DNA of 64,000 bases. Origin: Halegenticoccus soli (lineage in GTDB: Archaea; Halobacteriota; Halobacteria; Halobacteriales; Haloferacaceae). Position 1 is the stretch's first letter, and every line of letters starts with the position of its first letter. Location of the stretch: NCBI RefSeq assembly GCF_002844195.1, contig NZ_PEND01000004.1, positions 62,001-126,000 on the forward strand, given 5' to 3'. The notes under the pieces are model-generated. The model worked only from the letters and a program-made list of their open reading frames with translations, did not search any database and was not told where the DNA came from. Shown here one piece after another: positions 26,201 through 27,648 of this stretch. Both the position numbers and the translations under genes were made by a program.

Positions 26201-26442
26201 CGGTCCGATGCCCCCTGTTCCGGCGGGAAGGCGATTACCGGATTCCGGACCGGCGTCGAGCCGAACCGCTACGATCGGCTCTTCGGTTCGTGTCCGTTCG
26301 CTTCGCTCACTCCGTTGAGGAAGGGGCCTCCGCCTCGCAATTTAGGCGAAGACGGCGCTCCCTACGGGAACCACGGCGGTTCCCGCAACGCGCGTTCGCC
26401 AGATTCCGCGGACCCCGGCGGGCTGTCGGACGCTTCGAGTCT
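26201..26442. mobile_element. Degenerate insertion-element debris downstream of the Rieske gene
   Basis: Non-coding DNA between the Rieske gene and the peroxiredoxin stop. The part 26280-26342, read on the minus strand, starts AATTGCGAGGCGGAGGCCCC and continues TTCCTCAACGGAGTGAGCG. It resembles the stem region seen again at 27210-27281 and typical of haloarchaeal IS200/IS605-type right ends. No intact open reading frame remains. Confidence 0.4.
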
Positions 26443-26521
26443 GACAACGTCGCGGAGGCAGGAAGCCCCCCCTTCGAGGAACGAGCCGCGTCAGCGGCGA
26501 GTGAGTAGGTGAGGGTAGTTC
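26443..26521 (+). pseudogene. TnpB C-terminal relic plus reRNA-like (omega RNA) right end
   Basis: One frame encodes DNVAEAGSPPFEERAASAAS-E followed by TAG at 26506-26508, matching the usual C-terminal tail of haloarchaeal IS1341-type TnpB (of the kind SPxLKE...ASAxSE). The overlapping DNA has the features of the RNA that overlaps tnpB ends: GGCAGGAAGCCCC, a GCCGC-GTCA-GCGGC hairpin, GTGAGTAGGTGAGGG and a terminal GTAGTTCAC. The rest of tnpB is absent, so this is a fossil or a solo reRNA. Identification rests on remembered family tails. Confidence 0.5.
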
Positions 26522-27086
26522 ACCGGGAACTGTTCCGTACCCACTCCAGAACCTCGCCCGCGTGTTCGTCCGGCGGGAAAATCGGGTAGAAGACGTGTTC
26601 GATGCGCCCATCTGAGACGACCAGCGTCAATCGCTTCAGATAATCGTCGCCCTCGATGGTGAACGTCGGCAAGTCGAGTTCGTTCGTCAACTCCCGCTCG
26701 GCATCGCTGAGCATCTCGAAGGGGAGGTGCAGACGATCGCGGGCCTCGCGTTGGTACTCGCTTGACTGGGTAGATAGTCCGAATACCTCCCCGACTCCCT
26801 CATCTCGGAGTTCGTCGTAATGGCTGCGAAAGCCGCGCGACTCGGGAGTACAACCGCGGGCACCCGGGACGTCTTCCCACCCTTCCGGGATCACGTCCTC
26901 GTCCGGCCGCCCCGTCAGCGGATAGACGTAGATAACCGTTCGAGGGGGGAGCTCTCGGAGGTTGATCGTCGCGCCGTCGGTCGCCGGGAGTGAGACGGCG
27001 GGCATCTCCGTCCCTCGGAGATGGTCGGCCGCTCCATCGTCTTCCGGTACTGGCAGGTCGTCTGGGAGTGGAAAGTCCTCGGACAT
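26520..27086 (-). CDS. Peroxiredoxin
   Basis: A 188-residue thioredoxin-fold peroxiredoxin of the AhpC/TSA-redoxin group. The peroxidatic cysteine is in PGARGCTPESRGFR, preceded by the strand RTVIYVYPLTGRP. No clear resolving cysteine is present, so it is likely a 1-Cys or partner-dependent enzyme that reduces peroxides. Base composition is lower in GC than neighbours and codon use is more mixed, suggesting acquisition. Start ATG 27086 is favoured over 27101 because GATTTTATC lies 29 bases upstream of it. Its stop codon coincides with the end of the TnpB/reRNA relic. Confidence 0.85.
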   Translation of the reverse strand: MSEDFPLPDDLPVPEDDGAADHLRGTEMPAVSLPATDGATINLRELPPRTVIYVYPLTGRPDEDVIPEGWEDVPGARGCTPESRGFRSHYDELRDEGVGEVFGLSTQSSEYQREARDRLHLPFEMLSDAERELTNELDLPTFTIEGDDYLKRLTLVVSDGRIEHVFYPIFPPDEHAGEVLEWVRNSSR

Positions 27087-27119: not shown

Positions 27120-27209
27120 TTCCGATATCAGAAATAGTCGGATGAGGTTCGATAATCACCCTTAAAACTAGATTCAACCTAAATAAACGGCTTCAGCCGA
27201 ATCGAGGCG

Positions 27210-27281
27210 CTGTCTCCCCTCCCTACTCGTGCTTTTTCTTCGGTCGGCGCTCGCCGAGGAAGGGGGCGTAGCGCATCAATT
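27210..27281 (-). mobile_element. IS200/IS605-like right-end relic upstream of the peroxiredoxin gene
   Basis: Read on the minus strand this segment runs AATTGATGCGCTACGCCCCC, TTCCTCGGCGAGCGCCGACC, then CACGAGTAGGGAGGGG. The GCCCCCTTCC and GGGAGGGG ends can pair into a long stem, as at right ends of haloarchaeal IS1341-type elements. The AATT...GCCCCTTCCTC part resembles 26280-26342. No transposase frame is left. The remaining 27087-27396 DNA has AT-rich promoter sequence and no gene. Confidence 0.35.
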
Positions 27282-27396
27282 CAGCTACCGATCGGAGCGT
27301 TTAGTCGAGGTTGTGAGCGGGATAACCCTTCCCTCCGCCGCTCACTCGCTCACGAAGGGCGCGGAGTGTTCTCTCCGCGCAATGTTCGCTCGAAAA

Positions 27397-27471
27397 TAGC
27401 GGGAGGTAGATTTGAACTACCGATCTCCGGGTTATGAGCCCGGCGGAATCTCCTGGCTATCCCATCCCGCT
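27397..27471 (-). tRNA. Initiator tRNA-Met (CAU)
   Basis: The minus strand folds as a 75-base tRNA: acceptor AGCGGGA pairing with TCCCGCT, D-arm, anticodon stem CCGGG-CTCATAA-CCCGG with CAU anticodon, and T-arm GGTAG-TTCAAAT-CTACC. The A1-U72 closing pair and the three consecutive G-C pairs in the anticodon stem are initiator features. CCA is not encoded; a TTTT run follows the 3' end. A TATA-like CCTTAAC lies about 29 bases upstream (27497-27505). No intron. Confidence 0.95.
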
Positions 27472-27648
27472 ACATCACTCAAATCGACACTGACTGTTAA
27501 GGGTTGTGATTCCGTCGCCGTATGTGTGTTTTCGTCCCGCACGCCGGGGTGAGAAACGCCGATCCGGCGGCGTCGCTTTCGAGAGGCAGTCATCCCCGCT
27601 TTCGAGAGACGCTCCACCGGACGGCGGAATCCGATGCGACCGACGGCG

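Follow-up and report, generated by a model that had tools for sequence, protein, structure and literature searches.

The window analysed here, a stretch of 64,000 nt on contig C4 of a haloarchaeal genome of 4.6 Mb (G000), very probably carries a dead and truncated relic of an IS605/IS1341-type TnpB transposon that landed on the stop codon of a peroxiredoxin gene. Sequence comparison supports this reading by homology to other copies, by the boundaries of the element, by the missing tnpB body, by the pieces nested in one another, by damaged RNA helices and by the absence of the element from orthologous loci. The relatives of the tnpB 3′ end at 26350–26523 are called here subfamily Y; L numbers designate individual loci and G numbers genomes (Table 1).

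Table 1. Positions of the features discussed (window coordinates unless a contig is given)
Feature	Position	Strand	Evidence
Left-end relic of a second TnpB element (X), adjoining and truncating Y	26293–26349	−	92–98% identity
3′ remnant of IS605/IS1341-type tnpB (subfamily Y) with right end (RE)	26350–26523	+	DNA matches, R2
reRNA hairpin P3 (GGGAACC/GGTTCCC), intact	26366–26384	+	7/7 pairs; covaries across 21 linked copies
Double-hairpin cassette inside the tnpB tail, first hairpin decayed	26393–26447	+	Model R1; same site in other copies
Putative out-of-frame relic of the TnpB C-terminal tail	26449–26508	+	tblastn
Right-end hairpin, weakened	26465–26516	+	8/10 stem pairs; not the minimum-energy fold
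TTCAC, right terminus of the element	26519–26523	+	Unrelated flanks beyond that point in other copies
Peroxiredoxin gene, stop codon supplied by the element	26520–27086	−	PF08534
Separate Y-type left-end relic, upstream of peroxiredoxin	27206–27287	−	Alignment score
Copies of the ~377-bp tnpB-less element in G000 (L267–L273)	C5:427435, C5:473410, C5:462519, C5:421839, C5:357693, C3:479760, C3:497377		

The remnant and its boundaries

The remnant contains about 119 nt of Y sequence, plus a nested cassette, and is matched over its full length by L077/L049 and L009. Its right end (26448–26523) shares 80–84% DNA identity over 76 nt with the RE of TnpB-linked copies, both from G000 and from other genomes. 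A preliminary description of this DNA had proposed such a comparison with related genomes, and a search for another tnpB with the same right end in this genome; both gave matches, that in the own genome with E = 4.6e-15. Matches to the RE occur also on plasmids and in the genomes of relatives (51 of 99 relatives matched a query that also spanned the X piece and the 3′ end of peroxiredoxin). Nearly all Y copies end in GTAGTTCAC, or a close variant, and then run into unrelated flanks. Because the window RE finishes in the same way with GTAGTTCAC, the boundary is placed at 26523, and not at 26521, where the earlier description had put it exactly on the peroxiredoxin stop; the TGA does lie inside the terminus. 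The conserved right end with its subterminal hairpin is present, the hairpin being weakened.

The frame ending at 26508 (with VAEAGSPPFEERAASAASE before its stop) matches the C-terminus of haloarchaeal TnpB (with VVEAGSPTLKERTASAVSE) at 63–74% over 19 residues, and tblastn gives an E of about 1e-4 when the tail is counted jointly with an upstream piece. The TnpB tail motif EAGSP..ERAASAASE is a further mark of the homology. The fossil IS1341-type tail recognized earlier is thus retained, and the frame is best read as a relic of an older state of the tnpB tail. The body of tnpB is gone, as had also been noted: Y-type sequence begins only at 26350, where the left end of another element, X, stands in its place, and no matching Y left end was found for the window RE. 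The X sequence is 92–98% identical to DNA lying 5′ of intact tnpB genes in G001 (L054, L089) and to its copies in two further genomes, G085 and G086. A tblastn match at 26238–26396 (36% identity), which would have meant a longer tnpB remnant upstream, was rejected, since 26293–26349 is the left end of X. On this evidence, the locus is to be taken as an IS605-type remnant, not a complete element, with TnpB left only as an out-of-frame C-terminal tail. The X left end, the nested cassette and the separate Y-type left end (alignment score 77 vs. a maximum of 27 in 200 shuffles) are additions to the earlier description; a tRNA-Met gene (27396–27472, minus strand) is close to the latter.

Haloarchaeal IS1341-type elements, the tnpB-only members of the IS200/IS605 family, carry reRNA (omegaRNA), known as sotRNA in Halobacterium (RF02656/RF02657; PMC12558985, PMC8612924). 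The RE, TnpB tail and reRNA helices of the window are homologous to those of TnpB-linked copies of such elements; it differs by the missing body, the cut closing helix, the out-of-frame tail and a subfamily that the Rfam models do not cover. In Haloquadratum walsbyi, PATEs and terminal-only IS605 remnants are known, among which HqIRS71 takes in a portion of the C-terminal region of tnpB (PMC3119063). The window is likewise a non-coding IS605-derived remnant with a terminal palindrome kept. PATEs, however, have near-terminal palindromes at both ends, whereas the window has the right end only, its left being truncated by another element, so that it falls outside the PATE definition. It is nevertheless conceivable, if rather unlikely, that the copy arrived already tnpB-less and PATE-like instead of losing its body later, since tail-only copies that share the cassette site are known, and some of these have a left end but no tnpB (L060, L079, L081). 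The lack of a Y left end paired with the window RE argues against such an arrival, as do the tnpB-bearing kin with the cassette (L077, L086, L088), and the cut of Y exactly where X starts indicates a secondary truncation.

The peroxiredoxin stop codon and the reRNA fold

The convergent gene matches Redoxin PF08534 with E = 1.3e-13, and its TGA (26520–26522) is the complement of the TCA inside the TTCAC terminus. The element is absent from the 3′ end of the gene in all ten haloarchaeal orthologues compared, a single congener among them; those with readable ends have native TAA, TAG or TGA stops. At the homologous site, one orthologue has TTAC/CGGGA and another TTCAC/CGGGG. The left flanks of intact Y copies are TTAN, which the TTAC of the first orthologue fits; both facts led us to drop TTCAC as a target rule. 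Insertion of Y at a TTAC site turns ...GTAA into ...GTGAA, with an in-frame stop retained. Over 32 right ends, no clear enrichment was found for right ends that supply stops to convergent genes; the idea of Y right ends as general stop-codon suppliers was therefore rejected and the overlap is read as target and stop codon happening to coincide. It is explained by the landing site, without a regulatory role.

As to the order of events, we infer that a Y element whose tnpB tail already contained the cassette landed at the 3′ end of peroxiredoxin, where its right end (...TTCAC) would have swapped the native stop for an equivalent in-frame TGA, the protein being hardly disturbed. Element X would later have inserted in, or recombined with, Y, the bodies of both would have been lost, and the X left end would have come to adjoin the final ~120 nt of Y with the cassette. 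The leftover, devoid of the reRNA closing helix, would drift neutrally. The preliminary description had suggested that the copy could act as an antisense RNA. Read-through from the plus-strand remnant, which adjoins the end of the minus-strand gene in a convergent layout, could in principle regulate peroxiredoxin; we hold this to be very unlikely, since convergent read-through requires no transposon and the element is a recent arrival that the orthologues lack.

The covariance-type model R2 was built from 21 TnpB-linked copies, in which the fold comprises P1 (CCTGT/GCAGG), P2, the covarying hairpin P3 and the right-end hairpin. In these copies, 97.6% of the cells pair, and sliding the partner by 1–3 columns brings this to about 50% or less. 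R2 matches the window with 65 bits (E = 7.5e-11 genome-wide), and the reRNA-like end described earlier is right by homology. Family copies that have a complete TnpB domain immediately upstream reach ~76–145 bits, and the cassette itself lowers the score of the window. The Rfam models RF02656/RF02657 give no match in the window at gathering or relaxed thresholds, nor in the Y relatives tested, and the subfamily lies outside both. In G000, RF02656 matches beside a TnpB domain score 60–109 bits and the nine without one at most 58, as expected of decaying solo tails.

With nearly full pairing in the 21 linked copies, the window copy keeps 7/8 pairs in P2 besides the intact P3, but only 1/5 in P1 because X replaces its 5′ strand; the full scaffold (P1, P2, P3 and RE hairpin) is not present. 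The RE hairpin folds with z = +0.4, vs. −1.5 to −5 in most linked copies (the shuffles keep base composition only). The window departs at 7 of the 58 columns invariant in the 21 copies, while 18 of these copies have 0 to 1 changed. On the other side, P2, P3 and most RE pairs can still form, and RE pairing of 8/10 or less occurs also in some TnpB-linked copies (L002, L007, L013, L065), which counts against the fossil reading.

The other earlier suggestion is that the remnant could still work as a solo reRNA, made from the plus strand and bound in trans by TnpB of the genome; its guide would then be CGGGAACTGTTCCGTA, from the peroxiredoxin 3′ end. The recognizable reRNA region with its intact P3, the 35 TnpB domain matches in G000 that could act in trans and the intact tnpB-less reRNA-like elements of the same genome (see below) speak for it. 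Yet the invariant positions are changed and the closing strand and RE hairpin damaged, the guide has an exact match only at its own locus, and the locus is not conserved; such a role appears extremely improbable. With the P1 5′ strand deleted, the RE hairpin eroded and the orthologous loci without the element, nothing indicates that the copy is maintained, and neither role put forward for it earlier is supported. We conclude that it is most probably a fossil and not a working reRNA, its absence of function being deduced from these sequence features. Chance resemblance in GC-rich sequence, although long open frames do arise by chance in the window DNA, has practically no probability in view of the match to another copy in the same genome and of the matching nested structure in other genomes.

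The double-hairpin cassette

In the window, the cassette is 55 nt long and lies between AACGCG and CGTCGCGG, with two hairpins around GGGCT; model R1 matches 26388–26454 (47 bits, E = 1.3e-10). An insert, usually of 46 nt, occurs at the same site in more than a dozen other Y copies. The usual length is 1 mod 3 and the cassette supplies its own TGA (26442–26444 in the window), so that the old TnpB frame stops inside the insert and the tail is out of frame. The tnpB frame of the window's lineage accordingly stops at this TGA, out of frame with the tail ending at 26508. Against the Y reRNA consensus, the insert splits the 3′ strand of P2 into halves, opposite a bulged base, a position from which we infer that the reRNA helices can survive insertion of the cassette. 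At another tnpB site, just 5′ of P1, cassettes are present in L006, L007, L009, L010, L055, L074, L079, L081 and L088. Their lengths (57, 60 or 63) are all multiples of three, so that the reading frame can be kept there.

Overall, the cassettes measure 46–63 bp and were matched in 48 of the 60 genomes searched. In G000, all 19 copies are within IS605-type elements or relics of them; in G001, 31 of 41 are within 2 kb of a TnpB domain; and in G003, just 2 of 36 are near one. Strict confinement of the cassette to IS605 elements holds in the first genome, fails in the last and was rejected. In two G003 loci (L227 and L252), the cassette is in frame within long ORFs resembling S9 peptidases, which recalls the in-frame palindromic elements of Rickettsia.

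PATE-like IS605 remnants are known targets of other small repeats (PMC3119063). The small mobile repeat SMR-A similarly consists of short palindromes in head-to-head pairs and is reported to prefer IS605-type elements (PMC3119063); it is, however, ~110 bp long with prominent terminal inverted repeats, whereas the cassette is shorter and has a GGGCT or TGTGCG spacer between its two hairpins. The cassette also resembles the CGTC-tagged REP dimers (PMC3733652), of which four families are published, in its head-to-head palindromes and CGTC/CGTT-like outer tags, although it is archaeal. The comparison covered the CGT[C/T] outer tags and the paired hairpins, and a term search of the REP survey found no haloarchaeal name (PMC3733652).

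tnpB-less elements with a putative reRNA-like RNA

The general idea of solo reRNAs, set aside above for the window copy, finds support elsewhere in the sequence of G000, in an intact tnpB-less family. Seven copies (six distinct) of a ~377-bp IS605-type element are bounded on both sides by Y-type ends, and their interior shows no similarity to TnpB. Those at C5:427435 and C5:473410 have the same sequence in different flanking DNA, which points to recent movement. Relative to C5:427435, substitutions show no preference for third codon positions (91/86/67, in the one frame tested). The 3′ part of the element, 245 nt long, is apparently a covarying non-coding RNA related to reRNA. In alignment A4 (seven sequences), a structure of 63 pairs has 95.5% of its cells paired (as for A3, counted on the sequences from which the structure was derived). 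In it, 17 pairs are changed on both sides, vs. 5.8 in shuffles, a control that leaves the relatedness of the sequences in place, and at most 3 when slid.

Model R3, built from A4, was searched in 40 genomes. Among the matches listed, 40 score 110 bits or more (in G000, G001 and G006), and 39 of these have no TnpB TNB domain on their own strand in the 500 nt upstream; the absence of TnpB was judged by PF07282 and tblastn. None of a further 36 R3 loci (L309–L344, in G001, G006 and others) was used for the model, and five of them show TnpB similarity by tblastn. The 37 R3 matches of these loci have 92.5% of cells paired and 36/63 pairs changed on both sides (22 in shuffles), in an alignment fitted to the model and so biased towards it. 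In the genome-wide RF02656/RF02657 searches, the loci of the tnpB-less elements are not among the matches listed, and one copy (L104) gave no match in an Rfam scan at relaxed thresholds.

Elements of this general type have been on record since 2011, when the PATEs of Haloquadratum were described as IS605 elements with a deleted core (PMC3119063). The covarying reRNA-type structure in tnpB-less elements appears new, as far as open-licence papers show. We put forward, tentatively and at less than even confidence, that these haloarchaeal IS605-type elements of ~380 bp, with a reRNA-like RNA of ~245 nt as main conserved content, may be guide-RNA-only transposons, their RNA being under selection for its structure and employed in trans by resident TnpB proteins; the window relic would then be a TnpB-linked relative from this pool that has decayed, not an active member.

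The window locus itself is one more IS605-type fossil, an ordinary relic, and covariance matches to reRNA tails include many relics. The lesson of the locus is to search for tnpB-less elements that combine an intact covarying reRNA-type structure with signs of recent movement. Should TnpB use the RNA of such elements in trans, then non-autonomous elements could draw on TnpB for their own persistence in the genome.
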